A DNA stretch of 64,000 nt, from assembly GCA_905479925.1 (NCBI GenBank), contig CAJQOL010000007.1, forward strand, positions 1 through 64,000, given 5' to 3'. The translations under genes were made by a program, and so were the position numbers. The stretch is from an uncultured Kangiellaceae bacterium. Its GTDB lineage: Bacteria > Pseudomonadota > Gammaproteobacteria > Enterobacterales > Kangiellaceae. Positions 31,894 to 60,539 of this stretch are shown piece by piece; position 1 is the first letter of the stretch, and every line of letters starts with the position of its first letter. The notes beneath the pieces were generated by a model that was not told the DNA's origin, searched no databases, and was given only the letters and a program-made list of their open reading frames with translations.

Positions 31894-32307
31894 CAGTTTC
31901 TCTCGTAGGGTTAACAGCTGTTTATATGCAGTAAAGCAACCTAATCTGCCACTGCAAGCCCAGCTTTTCAGTTGTTTTTCGAATTAAATCAATACTATAC
32001 AGTCATCTAAGAGATTTTCAACGCTTGGATGTTTTAACACTTTTAGTTCATAAACATTCCTATACTGTTTTATAGATAACCCGATACTTTCAATTGCTTA
32101 CGCCAGAAATTGACGAGTTAAAAGCAACCTAAACTACCAGCCTTTGCAACCACCAGCCTATATAAGTACTGATACTCAACGCTATTCATCTAGGCAAACT
32201 TTTTGCTACAACTTGCCGTCTTATACCCTATAAAACCAAAAAATTTGCACAAAACCGGGGTCTATCGAAATACTTTGTCACATCTTTAACACCGAATTTC
32301 GGCTAAA

Positions 32308-32323
32308 AACTAATTAATTAGTT
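32308..32323. promoter_or_regulatory. BlaI operator 1 (AACTAATTAATTAGTT), upstream copy
   Basis: A perfect 16-bp palindrome of ACTAnnnnnnTAGT form lies in the 488-bp gap (31894-32381) upstream of blaI and overlaps the -35 box. The ACTA...TAGT halves resemble known BlaI/MecI operators. A second, less perfect copy lies 50 bp downstream. The rest of the gap shows no gene. Confidence 0.7.
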
Positions 32324-32351
32324 GATCAAGTTCGATAACGTGGGATATAGT
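32322..32351 (+). promoter_or_regulatory. Predicted sigma-70 promoter of blaI
   Basis: TTGATC (-35) and TATAGT (-10) are separated by 18 bp. The -35 overlaps operator 1, and operator 2 lies just after the expected start of transcription. This arrangement would let a bound BlaI dimer block the promoter. It is assigned from sequence only. Confidence 0.6.
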
Positions 32352-32357
32352 ATTTAA

Positions 32358-32373
32358 AACTAACGAATTAGTA
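32358..32373. promoter_or_regulatory. BlaI operator 2 (AACTAACGAATTAGTA), proximal copy
   Basis: This is an imperfect copy of operator 1, with the same ACTA and TAGT half-sites and spacing. It begins 24 bp before the blaI ATG. The two centres are 50 bp apart, about five helical turns, so two dimers could lie on the same DNA face. It implies autoregulation of blaI and the peptidase gene. Confidence 0.65.
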
Positions 32374-32381
32374 GGTAAAAC

Positions 32382-32762
32382 ATGGCTAGGAAAAAATCGA
32401 AACAACTCACTGATAGTGAGCAAAATATTATGGAAGTCCTGTGGAGAGAAGGCGAAGCCTCGGTTAGAACCATTGCTGACGAACTTTCTAAAGAAAAGCC
32501 AACCGCTTATACCACCGTACAAACCATGTGCAAAATACTAGCAGAGAAAGGCTACGCCGATTTTCATAAAGAAGGAAAAGCCTTTATTTATACCCCCAAA
32601 ATTTCTCAAAAAGATGCTCGCCAGGGCGCTTTAACCACCATGCTCAACCGTTTCTTTGGTGGGTCACCGGAAGTGCTCGCTCAACATCTTTTGCAGGAAA
32701 CGGACATTGATATGAAAGATATCGAAGCCTTACAAAAGAAAATCGACCAGATTGGCGAATAA
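32382..32762 (+). CDS. BlaI/MecI-family transcriptional repressor
   Basis: The 126-aa protein has a winged-helix domain (LTDSEQNIMEVLWREGEASVRTIADEL, PTAYTTVQTMCKILAEKGYA) and a C-terminal dimerisation helix region, the usual architecture and length. Such repressors are cleaved or released when the membrane M56 peptidase partner is activated. The gene lies 34 bp before that peptidase and downstream of two palindromes that fit its own binding site. No beta-lactamase gene is near, so its targets may be envelope stress rather than resistance genes. Confidence 0.93.
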   Translation: MARKKSKQLTDSEQNIMEVLWREGEASVRTIADELSKEKPTAYTTVQTMCKILAEKGYADFHKEGKAFIYTPKISQKDARQGALTTMLNRFFGGSPEVLAQHLLQETDIDMKDIEALQKKIDQIGE

Positions 32763-32796
32763 CGTTTAGAGCTGCTTATAAACCAGGACCAACAGC

Positions 32797-34356
32797 ATGA
32801 TTTCTGAATATACACTTTTTACCACTTTAGCTTTTCACCATCTGGTGATTGGTAGTGCGCTTATTCTTATTTTGTGGACGGCGGTAAAACTACTGAAGCT
32901 ATCAACCGAAATGCAAAGTTGGATTTGGATGACAGCGTTAATTCTTTCAACCCTTGCGCCTTTTACGTTGTTTGCGCCCAATACATCCAGCTCTTCACTA
33001 TCGACGATTAAGGCATCACCAACTGAGTCACCGATAGCGGCCCAAATGCCAAGTAATATGCCACAGGGAGAAGTGTCTGAACCTGGTAAAGCCGGAGACG
33101 ATCTTTGGCACCTACCAACCGAGATTGTATTTGAGTTAAGTAGTCTTATCGTGTTGTTTTGTTTGCTTTGGGTTTTAGGCAGTTTATGGCGAACAAAAAA
33201 TGTCATCGCAACCTTTATTAGAACCCGTCAATTGATCAATCAGCGACAACCTCTTGAGTCTAATCATGCGCTTTCGCGCACTAGTAATTACCCTGTTTGT
33301 ATTGCCGACTCCATTGGCTCACCAATGGTTGTTGGCTTAATAGCGCCCAAGATACTGATTCCGCAACAAATGATGCAGAAATTTAATACCGAACAATTGA
33401 AGCCAATCCTGTTACACGAACAAGCGCATATAAAACGCGGTGATATTTGGTTTGGTTTCTTTCAAGAGATTATTGCCATCGTTTTTTGGTGGAGTCCTGT
33501 CATTAGAATTCTTGATAGAAAAATACATTTACAACGGGAGTTGGCTTGCGACTTGAGAGCCGCAGATCAACTCAGCAACAAAAAACAATACGCTCAGTCG
33601 CTAATTGATTGCGCAAAATTAATGGTTACCGAAAATAGGAGCTTACTAGCTATGGGATTATTTAGTCAGAAAAAAGATCTAACCAAACGAATTAACTTGG
33701 TTATTAGTAACAACAGAAAAGTCACACCAAGTCTAGCTGCGGTATTAGCGGTTTGTGCTGGACTTTCCGTTACCACCGTTCAAGCAACACAATACCTGTC
33801 GCCAAAAATTAGTGTGACTCAAACGGAAAAAGATGCAAAACACTTTTCCTTGCTGCCTAAGCGAGACGGCTTACGATTAATTGAAGCAGTCGCGGCCAAC
33901 GACTTAGAGTCTATACGACAAATGCAAGCGGATGGTGTCGATATTGATACCCCAGCGGTTGGTGATGGAACCGCCATGATTATTGCCGTTAAAACCAATA
34001 ATCGACAAATGGTTCAAGGGCTTATCGATTTAGGTGCCGATGTCAATCAATCATCTCGCGGTGATGGTAACCCGTTGATTACGGCAGCAATGAAAAACAA
34101 TTTGGAATTAGCTCAACTGCTAATTGACAACGGCGCGGATGTGAATGGCATTGTGCCTGCTGATGAAACACCTCTGATTAATGCGACCCGTCGAGGATAC
34201 TTAGCGATGAGCGAACTACTTATTACTCAGGGCGCAGATGTGAACCTAGCGGTACAGACTGGTGCAAGTGATGGCAACGTTATTCGTACGCCGCTGAATA
34301 TGGCTCGCGGTGAAGACGTGATAGAGCTATTAAGAAACAACGGCGCCATCGAATAA
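32797..34356 (+). CDS. M56 (BlaR1/MecR1-type) membrane peptidase fused to ankyrin repeats
   Basis: The 519-aa protein has membrane helices near residues 12-32, 43-60 and 112-130. The M56 zinc peptidase domain carries LLHEQAHIKRGD (His207, Glu208, His211), with the likely third ligand Glu248 in QRELACDLRAAD. One more hydrophobic segment follows around 317-336 (SLAAVLAVCAGLSVTTVQA). From 360 to the end come about four ankyrin repeats (LIDLGADVN, LLIDNGADVN, LLITQGADVN). In BlaR1 this position is a penicillin-sensing domain outside the membrane; here ankyrin repeats replace it. It should cleave BlaI encoded just upstream; the signal is unknown. Confidence 0.88.
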   Translation: MISEYTLFTTLAFHHLVIGSALILILWTAVKLLKLSTEMQSWIWMTALILSTLAPFTLFAPNTSSSSLSTIKASPTESPIAAQMPSNMPQGEVSEPGKAGDDLWHLPTEIVFELSSLIVLFCLLWVLGSLWRTKNVIATFIRTRQLINQRQPLESNHALSRTSNYPVCIADSIGSPMVVGLIAPKILIPQQMMQKFNTEQLKPILLHEQAHIKRGDIWFGFFQEIIAIVFWWSPVIRILDRKIHLQRELACDLRAADQLSNKKQYAQSLIDCAKLMVTENRSLLAMGLFSQKKDLTKRINLVISNNRKVTPSLAAVLAVCAGLSVTTVQATQYLSPKISVTQTEKDAKHFSLLPKRDGLRLIEAVAANDLESIRQMQADGVDIDTPAVGDGTAMIIAVKTNNRQMVQGLIDLGADVNQSSRGDGNPLITAAMKNNLELAQLLIDNGADVNGIVPADETPLINATRRGYLAMSELLITQGADVNLAVQTGASDGNVIRTPLNMARGEDVIELLRNNGAIE

Positions 34357-34410
34357 GCAGCACTAGATAATAACAATAATGCTAACCATTGTTACCTCAA
34401 GGAGCAAACG

Positions 34411-35823
34411 ATGATATTTAACACACCGATATTTTTCTGGTTTTTCTGTATATTTATTTTGTTTTATGGATTTGTATTTCTAAAACAAAAACCTCGGGTC
34501 TACCTAATTTTAGTCGGTAGTTTAGTTTTCTACGGTGCTTGGAATTACAGTTTTATTCCTCTGTTAGTCGGAAGCGGAATCGCCGACTATTTTATCGCTC
34601 AGGCTATTGGTAATAGTAATAACCAAACCAGAAAGAAACGCTTAGTGACGCTTTCCTTAGCCATAAACCTTGGTTTATTAGGCATGTTTAAATATGCCGA
34701 CTTCGTGCTGGTATCGGTAGCGGACTTATTGTCAACTTTGGGTTATCAAGCTTCACTACCAACGCTTTCTTGGGTGCTTCCGGTTGGGATCTCCTTTTAT
34801 ACTTTTCAGAGTTTGAGTTACACCATTGACGTATATCGTGGTGATATGAAACCGAGAAAAGGATTGGTTGAATTTGTGGCCGCTTTGTCTTTCTTTCCGC
34901 AGCTAGTCGCTGGTCCGATTCTTAGGGCAAAGCAAATTTTGCCACAAATGCATGGGATTGCATTGCCTACTTGGGAGTCTGCAAAGCACGGTTTTTTACT
35001 GATTACTGTTGGTTTAATTAAGAAAACTGGTGCCGATATTTTAGCCATCCCTGCGGAAAAAGCCTTTGCAGCCCAAGAAGCGCTCAGCACATTAGAAGTG
35101 TGGACCGGTGTATTAGCTTTTGCCGGACAAATCTATGGTGACTTTTCTGGCTACACTGATATGGCGATTGGTATCGCATTACTATTGGGTTTTAAGATTC
35201 CGCTTAATTTTAGAGTACCCTACTTTGCATTATCACCGGTTGATTTTTGGCGGCGATGGCATATTTCACTTTCCAGCTGGCTGAAAGATTATCTATATAT
35301 TTCATTAGGCGGCAATCGTAACGGTCATAGAACACGAAATGTATTCATTACCATGTTGCTAGGTGGTTTGTGGCACGGCGCGGCGTGGACCTTTGTTGCC
35401 TGGGGTGCATTTCACGGAGCGATCATAACGGCTACTCATTACCTTGGCAGCTTGCCTTTGTTTCGCTCCTTCAATCAATCGAATAGTTTTGCAATAAAAA
35501 TCCTAAAATGGGCGATAACTTTCTATCTAGTTCTTATTGGCTGGGTATTCTTTAGAGCAACTGATATTCAAAGCGCTATGGAAATACTAACGACTATGCA
35601 TAGCTTTGGTAATCCCGCAGAACTAGGCCGACATGCCGTTGCATTTTTCATTTTGACAAGTGTTTGGGTGTTATTAGTTCATATCATGGATTTCTTTGTC
35701 ATTGAAGGCGCTGACAAACTAGAAAATAAACCGTGGCTATTTTGGCTATTAATCATTTTAGGTCAGGCAATCTGCTTATTTATAGGAGAACCCAGCAATG
35801 AGTTTATCTACTTCCAATTCTAA
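34411..35823 (+). CDS. MBOAT-family O-acyltransferase (AlgI-like)
   Basis: The 470-aa polytopic membrane enzyme has the AlgI/DltB-type signature WRRWHISLSSWLKDYLY and the catalytic His in GGLWHGAAWTFVAWGAFHG. Such proteins move acyl groups across the membrane onto polysaccharides or other envelope polymers. The start follows AAGGAG. The downstream SGNH gene overlaps by 26 nt, the usual partner arrangement (as with AlgJ/AlgX or DltD), so the two should form one acylation system. No alginate genes are nearby, so the acceptor polymer is unknown. Confidence 0.92.
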   Translation: MIFNTPIFFWFFCIFILFYGFVFLKQKPRVYLILVGSLVFYGAWNYSFIPLLVGSGIADYFIAQAIGNSNNQTRKKRLVTLSLAINLGLLGMFKYADFVLVSVADLLSTLGYQASLPTLSWVLPVGISFYTFQSLSYTIDVYRGDMKPRKGLVEFVAALSFFPQLVAGPILRAKQILPQMHGIALPTWESAKHGFLLITVGLIKKTGADILAIPAEKAFAAQEALSTLEVWTGVLAFAGQIYGDFSGYTDMAIGIALLLGFKIPLNFRVPYFALSPVDFWRRWHISLSSWLKDYLYISLGGNRNGHRTRNVFITMLLGGLWHGAAWTFVAWGAFHGAIITATHYLGSLPLFRSFNQSNSFAIKILKWAITFYLVLIGWVFFRATDIQSAMEILTTMHSFGNPAELGRHAVAFFILTSVWVLLVHIMDFFVIEGADKLENKPWLFWLLIILGQAICLFIGEPSNEFIYFQF

Positions 35824-36646
35824 TTTAAAAGAGGCCGAACCAATGCATACTCGAAAACAGTACGCAAAAATTATTTTTGCAATGTTTGCAGGCATGGCGG
35901 TCGCCATGTTAATTATTCGTGGTTTACTTGAACTACAAGGCGCCAATAAGCAAGGTATTTTAGGAAGGGTCGCCGAGGCACAATCCGCCCTCAATAAAAT
36001 TACTCAGGAACCGAACGAGCTAGTGATGTTCTATGGTTCTTCGATGACTCGCGCGGGATTCTCGCCACGTAAATTTGATAGAGAGCTTGCTGAACAAGGA
36101 AAGGCGATCACTTCATTTAATTTTGGTTTTGGTGGTCTTAATCCTTTCTATCAAGATTTGTTATCGCGTCGAATAGGCGAGCACTTTGTAAAAGAGGACC
36201 GCCGATTAAAGTTAGCATTAATTGAGTTTAATCCATTTCAGACAACGACTACTCGATGGCAACGCGCCAAATTTACCGTTGACTCTTTTCTTACAATGTT
36301 ATCAACCGATGAGGAGCTACTTGAAATTACTAAACAAGATCTAACCCGTGGCATTCGTTTGTTTAACATTAAATATATACGTGGTGATATCTCAGCGGAA
36401 ATGATTACCAGCTACTACGGCCAAGCCTTATTTCCAACACGGCCGCGTCAACAATTTGAAGATACCGAGAAATCCATGAAAAAGGACGTGAGCTTGGTAA
36501 GAAACTTGGTGAAAAATTTGAGCAGGAATACCCAGATTATAAAGGTGAAGAATGGTCATATGATTGGCAAGGTGGTGGGACCATACCCGAAGAACGTTCG
36601 GAGGAAACACTCAAACTATTTGAAGAGTATTACTCGGTTGTGTTGA
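35798..36646 (+). CDS. SGNH/DltD-like acyltransfer partner, N-terminal part (frameshifted)
   Basis: It starts inside the MBOAT gene after AGGAGAA. A membrane anchor (IIFAMFAGMAVAMLIIRGLL) is followed by the SGNH block with the nucleophile Ser in MFYGSSMTRAGFSPRKFD, then GFGGLNPFYQDLLSRR. The sense reading ends near base 36478. After that, ~55 codons of this frame are nonsense, while the overlapping frame encodes a plausible continuation that ends with the missing catalytic Asp-His pair. One base is missing in the A5 run (36479-36483); with A6 the protein would be 406 aa. Confidence 0.8.
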   Translation: MSLSTSNSNLKEAEPMHTRKQYAKIIFAMFAGMAVAMLIIRGLLELQGANKQGILGRVAEAQSALNKITQEPNELVMFYGSSMTRAGFSPRKFDRELAEQGKAITSFNFGFGGLNPFYQDLLSRRIGEHFVKEDRRLKLALIEFNPFQTTTTRWQRAKFTVDSFLTMLSTDEELLEITKQDLTRGIRLFNIKYIRGDISAEMITSYYGQALFPTRPRQQFEDTEKSMKKDVSLVRNLVKNLSRNTQIIKVKNGHMIGKVVGPYPKNVRRKHSNYLKSITRLC

Positions 36647-37017
36647 CGGACGCTCAGATGAAAAATGATCGCTTAAGTCGTATACGAACCGCCGATATTG
36701 AAGAAATGCATTTCGAGCCGTTATTGGTAAAAAGCTTTATTCAGATCATTAAGAATTTTCAACAATTTTCCGATGACGTAGAAGTCGTGATGTTGCCCAG
36801 AAACACACGGTGGATTAACTATTCGGAAGAAGGTAAACAGCGGCTAGCGGAAGCGATTAAACAAATTGAAGAGGCGACGGGAATAACAATTGTCGATCAC
36901 AGAGAGCTTGATGAAATTAGTCCGGAGATGTTTTCGGATACCACTCATCTGGCACGATATCGCGGTGATGTTGCGTATACCGATTACTTGATAAAAACTT
37001 ATGCTCCTGATTTATAG
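36481..37017 (+). CDS. SGNH/DltD-like protein, C-terminal part (frame-shifted continuation)
   Basis: The track shows only 36640-37017, but the frame reads sensibly from 36481 (KGRELGKKLGEKFEQEYPDY). The part contains FSDTTHLARYRGDVAYTDYL, which supplies the DxxH of an SGNH hydrolase fold. The nucleophile Ser is in the other fragment, so neither part alone can be active. The start codon offered at 36640 has no ribosome site. I read this as one gene with the N-terminal piece, broken by a single-base indel. Confidence 0.78.
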   Translation, partial: KGRELGKKLGEKFEQEYPDYKGEEWSYDWQGGGTIPEERSEETLKLFEEYYSVVLTDAQMKNDRLSRIRTADIEEMHFEPLLVKSFIQIIKNFQQFSDDVEVVMLPRNTRWINYSEEGKQRLAEAIKQIEEATGITIVDHRELDEISPEMFSDTTHLARYRGDVAYTDYLIKTYAPDL

Positions 37018-37079
37018 GGATTAAGACTGACGTCGATTGAAATCAGCTAGTCGCTATCTATTAATAATAATTCTAACGA

Positions 37080-37104
37080 CCAAACCGATGATAAATCGGT
37101 TTGG
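37080..37104. terminator. Hairpin between convergent SGNH and VOC genes
   Basis: A perfect 10-bp stem, CCAAACCGAT with ATCGGTTTGG, and a 5-nt loop lie 63 bp after the SGNH stop and 19 bp after the VOC stop on the other strand. There is no U tract on either side, so the terminator role is likely but not certain. Confidence 0.55.
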
Positions 37105-37122
37105 AGGTAGCTTGGGTTGATA

Positions 37123-37542
37123 CTAACTATCGCTGTTTCTTTGACTCGGTTGGTCTGAAAAATACTCGACAAACTCTACTTCAAATCCAGCGGGATCAAT
37201 GAAATAAATATTATTGCGATATGAATTTTCTGCGCCATCCTGTGCGATTTTGAACCCAGCCCCAGTTAACCGTTTAATTAAGTCCGCTAAGCCACTGACT
37301 TCAAATGCGAAATGTGCCAACCCTACTTGATGACCGCTTAAATCGCGGTTATCAGCTTCACCATTATCACTAAGAGCAAGATAGGTAAAATCATCGCCAA
37401 AGTGCACCCAATGTCGTGGTTTTCCATACCAATCGCTATCTCCTTGGCGAAGAACCTTCCAGTGAGGAAAGACTATTTTATAAAAGTCCATCATTTCAGA
37501 AACATTACTAACGACCAGATTTATGTGTTCAATACGTAACAT
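37123..37542 (-). CDS. Glyoxalase/VOC-family protein controlled by SoxR
   Basis: The 139-aa single-chain VOC protein starts LRIEHINLVVSNVSEMMDFY. It carries His6 and a matching C-terminal Glu in IDPAGFEVEFVEYF as potential metal ligands. This is the lyase/dioxygenase/antibiotic-binding superfamily; substrate unknown. It is divergent from soxR, and its promoter has a SoxR site exactly between the -35 and -10 boxes, so it should be induced by redox-cycling compounds. That suggests detoxification of a quinone-like or electrophilic compound. AAGGAG precedes the ATG. Confidence 0.88.
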   Translation of the reverse strand: MLRIEHINLVVSNVSEMMDFYKIVFPHWKVLRQGDSDWYGKPRHWVHFGDDFTYLALSDNGEADNRDLSGHQVGLAHFAFEVSGLADLIKRLTGAGFKIAQDGAENSYRNNIYFIDPAGFEVEFVEYFSDQPSQRNSDS

Positions 37543-57664: not shown

Positions 57665-57917
57665 TTAAATGTCCTTTTAGTGTGAGCTTGGAGAGTTTAA
57701 CCAACTATGTTTGCTTAGTAAAAGTCTTTGTTATTGACAATCATAAAAAATAATCGAAGAGGGCCCGCTCGTTCCCAAATAGAGGGCAAGGTACCCCAAC
57801 GAGGAATTAATCTATCGAATACTATTATGATTAACATCGCTCTATCCAAACTGTTAAAACATCGTCGGATCAACTACACTCGTAAGCGATATTTTAGTAA
57901 TGGAGAGCAACGCAATC

Positions 57918-60539
57918 ATGACTAATGATTTACCTTCTGACTCAACGGCGGACAAATCTAGTGCAAATGCTACCGACACCTTCAAGTATCACGCTTTCAT
58001 TTCTTATCGACATGCCGATAATAAAGAACCGGGGCGGCAATGGGCGACATGGCTCCATCAATCAATTGAGACCTATCAGGTTCCGGCGGATCTAGTCGGA
58101 AAAATTAATGGACGCGGCGAAAAAATTCCCGCAAGAATCTACCCGATATTTAGAGATGAAGAAGAGCTTCCTGCGAACGCTGATCTCGGTAACTCAATTG
58201 TTGGTGCTCTCGATACAAGTCGAATTTTAATTGTACTCTGCTCTCCACAAGCCTATGCATCAACCTATGTTGCCGATGAAATACACCATTTTAAACGCAT
58301 AGGACGTTCCGATTCTATTATTGCGGGCCTGCTCTATGGCGAGCCAAATACAAGTTGGGATAAGGGAAAACTAGCGCTTGGTTTCACTAGTGACGACGAG
58401 TGTTTTCCACAGCCTCTACAATATCAATATGATGACAATGGTCAACGAACAACGCGACGTGCAGAACCGATTGCAGCGGATTTTCGAATAAATAACGAAG
58501 GTAATATAGAACAAGGGTGGACATCGCCGGAGGCGTATCGGCTGCACTTAGAGAAAGATCTATCTCTCACTAAATCGCAACGCCAGTTGGCAATACAAAA
58601 ATATCAGAAGCAACAACATTTAATGTTACTCAAAATAATTGCAGGCATTCTAGGAGTTCCGCTCGGACAATTGAGCCAAAGGGATAAAGAGTATCAATTA
58701 CAACAGGCGCAGTTAAAAGCAAAAAAGCTTAGACGATGGCTTGCCCTTGTTGCTCTACTAGCGGTAGTTGCGATTGGCGCAGGATTTACTGCCTATTTGA
58801 AACAACTGGAAGCCATAAAGCAAACAAAACAGGCGCAAATTTCCCAGTCTAAAACCCTCGCCCAAAACGCCATAGATGCTTTTGCCAGGGGAGAGTTTCA
58901 GCAGTCCATCGATATTGCTCGTTCAGCCTTACCTCGCTCGCTGGCCACCTCTGACAGAGCTTACTCCCAAGATGCCGAAGCGATTTTAAGCAGTGCCGTG
59001 TTTCACGACATGTTGCTGTTTAGTGACAAAGCTGATGAACAATGGACGGATGCCGATTGGCTAAGAAAAGATCCTTATAAGAGCCAATTATCCTCAGATA
59101 AAAGCAGACTAATTATCTACGATGGCGCAGCACCAGCTGTAGTTGACTTGAGCAATTTCTCTCGCGTATCACTGCAAGATATGCCGAGCGGGTTAACCTG
59201 GCAATCGAGCGTTTCTAAATCAGGACGATATCTTTCAGGTTCGGTGACGCAAAACGATCAGTATCAAAGTTACCTATGGGACACCAGCAATGGAGCGCTA
59301 CTAAAAAAGCTTAATACCAAGCTGCTTAAGTTTAGCCACAGTGAAAACTATGTTGCGGTAAAAGGGAGTTCAAACAAACAGCCTAACCAGCTGATTGATT
59401 TACAATCCGGCGATACTGCAATGGAATTTCTAGGCAATTTTAAAGGCCTATTTGCTGCTGATTCTCTATTACTAGCTGAGGGAAAAAGAAATTGTAAATG
59501 GGTAGATTTTAACCGAGTTTGTCAATCACCGACTTATGTTTACTCAGTTGAAAGCGGCGAGCTTATTAACACCATACAAGGCAAAATAGCCGAGCAGTTT
59601 TCAGATGACGAGCTAGTGATTTTGGATGGCGCAGTCAAACCCAATGATTTACCCGGTTTCGCCGAGAGCAATGAACAGCCGATATCGGAACGGAAAAACT
59701 CTCTCGGCGTGCTAGTCTGGAAAGCAAAAAATAGGCAAGTTAATGCCTTTTATCCAGGAAACCTTATTCATTATAACGCGACGCATCGACGACTGATTAT
59801 CGAAAACCAAAAAACAGACAAGGTTGAGCTCTGGGATATCGATAACAATAAAATTATTGCTCAGATAAATGGTCAGATTCAAACAAGGATCAGCGACTCT
59901 CATTATGATGTTCTAAAGAAACGAAAAATTCTATGGGATGATCATACAGACGATCCATTTTTTATTTCATTGATCGAGCGAGGTGAACAACAATCAACGA
60001 TTAAATATTCATTTTTGAGTGGCTCGGTCCTCAGTGAAACTCCCGGACAATTTATTGGCGTCACTGAAAATTCAAGAGTTCTTAGTCATGTTATTGATAA
60101 TGGTTTGCATAAAATTTATGCAGAGCTTGGTCAGCAGGCTGAGTTAGAAATACCGGAGAATCTTTGTTTAAACCAATATGAAGAGCAGCCGGTTATTGAA
60201 CGATCGCGAATAAAAACCTCCACAATCATCTTTAACTGCAGCGACTATATAGCGGTATTTTTTCCGGAAAGTAGTGAACCTAGCAAACCGCGTATAATTC
60301 TTTCTGAGCACCCTGCTCAATGGGTTGATGGCGGTCAGTTTTTCTATTATGGCAAGGGGACTGCTAATTTGCTTGGAACAAGTCAATGGGAAGGTGGTCA
60401 CGTTCAGTTAGAACAGATGATGAGAGTTAAAACGAAAGAATGGACAACATTTAGAAGCATCGATAATGGCCGCTTTCTTTTGTCGCTTTCTCCCAATTCA
60501 GAAATTAACCTATGGGATTCAACTGGCAGTATATTTTAA
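57918..60539 (+). CDS. TIR domain-transmembrane-beta-propeller protein (ended by in-frame TAA)
   Basis: It has a TIR domain at ~20-140 (YHAFISYRHADN, RDEEELPANADLG, ILIVLCSPQAYASTYVADEI, with Glu near the usual NADase position). A linker with a coiled coil and one transmembrane helix (RRWLALVALLAVVAIGAGFTAYL) follow, then a region of ~560 aa with propeller-like repeats ending LWDSTGSIF. The start at 57918 has GGAG upstream, better than the tracked 57900. A single TAA at 60537 separates it in the same frame from the next ORF, which looks like its own C-terminus. Full length would be ~1176 aa. Confidence 0.85.
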   Translation: MTNDLPSDSTADKSSANATDTFKYHAFISYRHADNKEPGRQWATWLHQSIETYQVPADLVGKINGRGEKIPARIYPIFRDEEELPANADLGNSIVGALDTSRILIVLCSPQAYASTYVADEIHHFKRIGRSDSIIAGLLYGEPNTSWDKGKLALGFTSDDECFPQPLQYQYDDNGQRTTRRAEPIAADFRINNEGNIEQGWTSPEAYRLHLEKDLSLTKSQRQLAIQKYQKQQHLMLLKIIAGILGVPLGQLSQRDKEYQLQQAQLKAKKLRRWLALVALLAVVAIGAGFTAYLKQLEAIKQTKQAQISQSKTLAQNAIDAFARGEFQQSIDIARSALPRSLATSDRAYSQDAEAILSSAVFHDMLLFSDKADEQWTDADWLRKDPYKSQLSSDKSRLIIYDGAAPAVVDLSNFSRVSLQDMPSGLTWQSSVSKSGRYLSGSVTQNDQYQSYLWDTSNGALLKKLNTKLLKFSHSENYVAVKGSSNKQPNQLIDLQSGDTAMEFLGNFKGLFAADSLLLAEGKRNCKWVDFNRVCQSPTYVYSVESGELINTIQGKIAEQFSDDELVILDGAVKPNDLPGFAESNEQPISERKNSLGVLVWKAKNRQVNAFYPGNLIHYNATHRRLIIENQKTDKVELWDIDNNKIIAQINGQIQTRISDSHYDVLKKRKILWDDHTDDPFFISLIERGEQQSTIKYSFLSGSVLSETPGQFIGVTENSRVLSHVIDNGLHKIYAELGQQAELEIPENLCLNQYEEQPVIERSRIKTSTIIFNCSDYIAVFFPESSEPSKPRIILSEHPAQWVDGGQFFYYGKGTANLLGTSQWEGGHVQLEQMMRVKTKEWTTFRSIDNGRFLLSLSPNSEINLWDSTGSIF

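Follow-up and report, generated by a model that had tools for sequence, protein, structure and literature searches.

A candidate envelope-signalling operon on the BlaI/BlaR1 relay, in which an M56 protease carries ankyrin repeats in place of a penicillin-binding sensor

BlaR1-type proteases have so far been studied almost solely as β-lactam sensors, and the C-terminal sensor of BlaR1 and MecR1 is a penicillin-binding domain. BlaR1 adopts an N-out/C-out topology with a cytoplasmic active site, and the catalytic residues of the Staphylococcus aureus protein are H201ExxH, E242xxxD, D210, Y261 and R294 (PMC9834060). In the 64,000-nucleotide stretch of DNA analysed here (the window), a 519 aa ORF at 32797..34356 (+) encodes a putative sensor/transducer in which, according to Pfam domains and an AlphaFold2 model, an M56 protease is joined to ankyrin repeats (M56-Ank). 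The locus resembles BlaI-BlaR1 and MecI-MecR1 in its M56 fold, catalytic set, order of transmembrane (TM) helices, candidate autocleavage loop, adjacent BlaI-family repressor and paired promoter operators. The protease/repressor relay is classical, whereas the sensor and the outputs are not.

The M56 domain spans residues 17-301 (32845..33699, +; PF05569 Peptidase_M56, E 1.9e-36; BlaR1 fold by Foldseek) and both of its zinc motifs are intact, HEQAH at 33415-33429 (residues 207-211, +) and ELACD at 33538-33552 (residues 248-252, +). The BlaR1 catalytic set, H207, E208, H211, D216, E248, D252, Y265 and R298 in M56-Ank numbering, is invariant across 35 homologues, D216, Y265 and R298 being the counterparts of BlaR1 D210, Y261 and R294. 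The best solved sequence relative of the protease part is BlaR1 (8exp, E 5.5e-11). Since the full-length model (pLDDT 85) was swamped by designed ankyrins in Foldseek, the M56 part was folded separately with AlphaFold2, and matches 1-6 were then all BlaR1 (E 5.9e-7). In the full-length model, helices at residues 2-33, 37-58, 115-149 and 313-334 give the same four-helix layout as BlaR1, so that both the fold and the TM arrangement are BlaR1-like in the models. A disordered loop at residues 282-290 (the LAMGLFS region; 33640..33666, +; pLDDT <50) aligns with BlaR1 LSHS↓F and is a candidate counterpart of the BlaR1 autocleavage loop. The original prediction that the protease and its membrane helices are intact is thus borne out by the sequence and the models alike.

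Both M56 and Ank domains were matched by Pfam in all 35 aligned members, while none of the 35 gave a Pfam match to a penicillin-binding domain, ankyrins standing in that place as had been predicted. Moreover, M56-Ank scores 88.5 bits against the NCBIfam BlaR1/MecR1 equivalog NF000326, below the cut-off of 400. Lacking the penicillin-binding sensor and staying under the equivalog cut-offs, M56-Ank is not a BlaR1 or MecR1; it belongs to peptidase family M56 and to the BlaI/M56 relay. Other Gram-negative BlaI-M56 pairs, three of which lie in the window's own genome (L034, L035 and L036; contigs C157, C45 and C55), likewise have BlaI beside M56 but lack ankyrins. After the last helix, two of these three proteins carry TonB_C and one has a short tail, showing that such tails vary within one genome.

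Pfam gave an Ank_2 match at residues 361-450 of the 519-aa ORF (E 1.2e-16) in addition to other Ank models, and these matches, the AlphaFold2 model and conserved hairpin tips delimit an ankyrin sensor domain at residues 355-514 (33859..34338, +). Four repeats had been predicted; the model contains four complete ones and, beyond that count, a C-terminal capping half-repeat. The secreted ankyrin of Pseudoalteromonas denitrificans, the only match to an exact short-peptide search of genome contigs, aligns through TM helix 4 (residues 313-334; 33733..33798, +), which pairs with its signal peptide. In all, ten standalone ankyrin homologues, 38-52% identical, have signal-peptide-like N-termini, as called from hydropathy and cleavage-site pattern rather than by a dedicated predictor. 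By charge count, lysine plus arginine amount to 26 in the 180-residue protease segment and 2 in the 49-residue TM2-TM3 loop, and the ankyrin domain has 11 in 163 residues against 23 acidic ones.

Most known ankyrins are cytosolic, and those of M56-Ank could in principle also lie in the cytoplasm and bring the protease together with BlaI or some other cytosolic protein. We regard this as very improbable, given that TM helix 4 was found in all members checked, that the relay requires a cytoplasmic active site and therefore a C-terminus outside, and that the nearest ankyrin relatives have N-termini of the signal-peptide type. A periplasmic orientation of the ankyrins, as first proposed from the likeness to BlaR1, is instead strongly indicated by the BlaR1 topology, BlaR1 being the closest solved fold, together with the charge bias and the secreted homologues. 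The accompanying claim that periplasmic ankyrins are rare has to be qualified, both by the secreted versions of this very sensor family and by Bdellovibrio Bd3460, a signal-peptide-bearing ankyrin protein that binds and blocks periplasmic DD-endopeptidases (PMC4686830). M56-Ank would resemble Bd3460, a periplasmic binder of peptidoglycan endopeptidases, in exporting ankyrin repeats, but Bd3460 is a soluble inhibitor with six repeats and has neither a membrane protease nor a BlaI (PMC4686830).

The repressor partner expected upstream is a BlaI/MecI-type protein of 126 aa (32382..32762, +; PF03965 Penicillinase_R, E 1.3e-32), which aligns with MecI (1okr, E 3.5e-11) and whose gene ends 34 bp upstream of that of M56-Ank. 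A search for M56-ankyrin proteins beside BlaI in other genomes, suggested with the original prediction, returned many, and blaI adjoins every copy with enough upstream DNA. The sequence QHL at BlaI residues 101-103 aligns with the classical cleavage site and is invariant in 34 of 34 aligned BlaI proteins; the residues aligned to the classical Asn101↓Phe102 are His102↓Leu103, so that the putative P1' residue is Leu here whereas the Phe of classical BlaI is nearly invariant. Copper regulation via CopY was rejected, as the CopY/TcrY NCBIfam score of this BlaI (74 bits) lies under the cut-off of 122.

Two dyads bracket the blaI promoter, a sigma-70-like TTGATC-18-TATAGT (32322..32351, +) whose element positions are conserved in homologues and which is the only + strand promoter-like match within 32000-37200. 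Operator 1, the perfect dyad AACTAATTAATTAGTT (32308..32323, no strand assigned), overlaps the -35 element, and operator 2, AACTAACGAATTAGTA (32358..32373, likewise strandless), lies 50 bp from it at the expected transcription start. The pair recurs in 34 of the 35 loci with upstream sequence (36 loci examined) at a spacing of 45-50 bp, the G127 locus having one site. Operator pairs score 23-28 of 28, and no shuffle out of 360 scored above 21; the shuffles, however, keep base composition only, and the loci are related, so that the conservation is partly shared ancestry. An exact copy of AACTAATTAATTAGTT occurs in the window's genome at blaI and nowhere else, and in G164, which is a single contig, the matches with one mismatch or none are only the two at blaI. 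Upstream of the more divergent BlaI of G1382 and G1228 the paired dyads are TTACA-TGTAA-like, unlike the CTAA/TTAG-type operators of the window's clade. The paired dyads at its own promoter that typify BlaI/MecI are thus present and conserved as predicted operators, from which it can be strongly inferred that BlaI autoregulates its operon. A wider regulon was considered and set aside: apart from the blaI sites, only one near-match in the window's genome comes within a single mismatch, and it falls in apparent coding sequence, and the additional operator-like sites of G023 and G086 do not form pairs.

Downstream of M56-Ank lies an output gene for an MBOAT O-acyltransferase, DltB/AlgI-like (34411..35823, +; PF03062, E 1.7e-23; TIGR04091, E 9.1e-43, under its cut-off), followed by a frame-broken SGNH/DltD-like partner (35798..37017, +; DltD, E 1.5e-6). 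The latter is a single ORF in homologues and is divided in the window into 35798-36646 and 36640-37017, with a frame change near 36478-36487. Both halves are still 62-69% identical to the G164 protein, pointing to a possible sequencing or assembly error, with a mutation as the alternative; the output pair of the window may accordingly be misassembled or truly disrupted. MBOAT follows M56-Ank in 15 genomes, the window's included, and the SGNH/DltD-like partner follows MBOAT wherever the sequence extends far enough. In G868 (L130:5894-6253) MBOAT is gone and an SGNH fragment alone stands behind blaI-M56Ank, apparently a decayed output. An MBOAT membrane protein with an SGNH partner recalls DltB/DltD, AlgI/AlgJ/AlgX and PatA/PatB, from all of which the window pair differs by standing under BlaI-type operators. 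A dlt D-alanylation operon, in which dltA and dltC accompany dltB and dltD, was rejected: in the window, in G023 and in G164, no ORFs resembling dltA or dltC were seen to flank MBOAT/SGNH, and the pair falls below the DltB and DltD NCBIfam cut-offs.

In 18 genomes of a related family, the gene downstream of M56-Ank encodes a PF00144 serine hydrolase. The order BlaI-M56Ank-PF00144 recurs in G1367, G1228 and G1382, and may for this reason be the older arrangement. The outputs of the module, MBOAT/SGNH, PF00144 hydrolase or secreted ankyrin, are unlike those of BlaR1/MecR1 systems; in G127 and G956 an adjacent output gene is absent. Sensor and output are tightly linked. Of the 399 genomes, 14 have a close MBOAT orthologue (at least 77%), the next best matches reaching at most 46%. 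Twelve of the 14 genomes have the module adjacent, G779 is cut at a contig end, and G812 has the module on another contig, its copy being a fragment at a contig end. Within one genus, PF00144 orthologues are present in 12 of 12 genomes with M56-Ank versus 1 of 10 without, and in that one the gene lies at a contig end. Furthermore, the detached MBOAT/SGNH of G812 keeps its own operator pair just upstream (sites 48 bp apart), and the secreted ankyrin beside M56-Ank in G787 also has its own pair (46 bp apart). These operators kept by detached outputs are the strongest evidence, at the level of sequence, that the output genes belong to the BlaI regulon. The G787 protein (L128:3456-4184) is a possible feedback or decoy protein; no such operator pairs were found upstream of the other standalone secreted ankyrins.

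M56-Ank members with different outputs share the hairpin tips GDGT, GDGN and ADET, and the secreted ankyrin versions keep them as well, which points to a shared ligand and suggests that all members recognise a common partner rather than their varying outputs. Given that Bd3460 binds peptidoglycan endopeptidases, this ligand could conceivably be a cell-wall enzyme. The same precedent, in which a periplasmic ankyrin binds DD-endopeptidases of the penicillin-binding fold (PMC4686830), also lends itself to a feedback explanation, with the ankyrins binding the periplasmic product of their own operon (the PF00144 hydrolase or SGNH) and reporting its level or state. The tight sensor-output linkage and the position of PF00144 as the most widespread output would fit such feedback, but constant tips across output types and the lack of an adjacent output in G127 and G956 do not, and we think it unlikely.

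A role in β-lactam resistance could also have been retained, in an indirect response to β-lactams or cell-wall damage where the ankyrin binds a housekeeping PBP or peptidoglycan enzyme. The BlaI/M56 relay itself and the class C β-lactamase fold common to the PF00144 outputs speak for it, as does the ability of peptidoglycan fragments to act on BlaI (PMC3305447). However, the PF00144 outputs score far below β-lactamase cut-offs and by eye have HxG where KTG is expected, and the MBOAT/SGNH output has no known tie to β-lactam resistance, which makes such a response quite unlikely in our judgement.

Of 399 genomes from one related family, 33 encode a full-length M56-Ank protein. Others come from the window's own family, namely from G023 (48% identity) and G025, where the gene is split by frameshift or assembly error, from G127 of one further family, and from the more distant Pseudomonadota G1367, G1228 and G1382. 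Since these genomes are related, their number is not a number of independent events. Two copies are present in G1382, a genome from outside the window's class; its second, diverged BlaI-M56-Ank pair (L177:4300-6235) is preceded by TTACN-CGTAA-like repeats and followed by an esterase-like gene. With a 6-row profile none had been found outside the order in the first class-level sample, but a 35-row profile on a phylum-level sample did find M56-Ank there, and claims of absence made at low depth are therefore unreliable. No plasmid record reached 80% coverage and no match was found among viral contigs. In the tree, the window protein forms a group with 13 proteins from the other family (100/99), a group that does not include G023 of its own family, and this placement suggests horizontal transfer. 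The possibility that the fusion is absent from all relatives is thereby disproved. A functionless fusion, whether a product of chance or of decay, for which the local SGNH frameshift and nothing further could be cited, is hardly credible and was rejected, since dozens of genomes keep M56-Ank and, along with it, its catalytic residues, operators and partners. The original suggestion of an undescribed signal-transduction module gains support from the conserved synteny and from operators which, like the conserved output genes, go beyond what was then described; the module looks like an undescribed signalling switch and not a chance fusion.

We consider it probable that the BlaI/BlaR1 relay here underlies a self-contained operon for envelope signalling, with enzymes that modify the envelope placed under the control of a periplasmic ankyrin sensor. 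BlaI would repress its own operon through the two dyads bracketing the promoter, while the protease would be an inner-membrane protein whose active site faces the cytoplasm and whose C-terminal ankyrins project into the periplasm. The trigger would be the binding or release, by the ankyrin domain, of a partner in the periplasm, most probably a protein linked to the state of peptidoglycan or envelope; the M56 domain would then cleave BlaI, probably near H102↓L103, and the operon with its output enzyme would be expressed. In the window this output would be the MBOAT/SGNH pair, likely O-acylating an envelope polymer, and in most other lineages the PF00144 serine hydrolase. The proposal starts from domains, catalytic residues, synteny, operator conservation, co-occurrence and the operators of detached outputs, all read directly from sequence; BlaI cleavage by M56-Ank, the identity of the signal and the output chemistry we infer. 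The P1' Leu, the SGNH frameshift in the window and the missing adjacent outputs of G127 and G956 count against the envelope-signalling operon, as do three different outputs, which blur a common signal. Tentatively, and with more doubt than confidence, the scheme may be extended to a class of transmembrane signalling not described before. In it, a periplasmic ankyrin domain would keep watch on an enzyme of the cell wall, or on a similar protein, and set off the proteolysis of BlaI; the envelope-modifying outputs would be interchangeable, and the soluble ankyrin that at least one genome secretes, its gene standing under operators of the same kind, might serve as a feedback decoy.

The open-licence literature, a scope that leaves out most subscription journals, yielded no paper in which ankyrins are linked to M56 or BlaR1. 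The module indicates that in many Gram-negatives the relay has been refitted with a sensor that would bind protein on the periplasmic side of the membrane and has been wired to envelope-modifying enzymes. With the same relay and a different sensor and outputs, it provides a comparative system for how M56 proteases signal across the membrane, and offers a direct test of ankyrin repeats as extracytoplasmic sensors in bacteria. Elsewhere in the window, 57900-60539 encodes an 879-residue protein with a weak N-terminal TIR-like match (E 6e-6, just under the Pfam cut-off).
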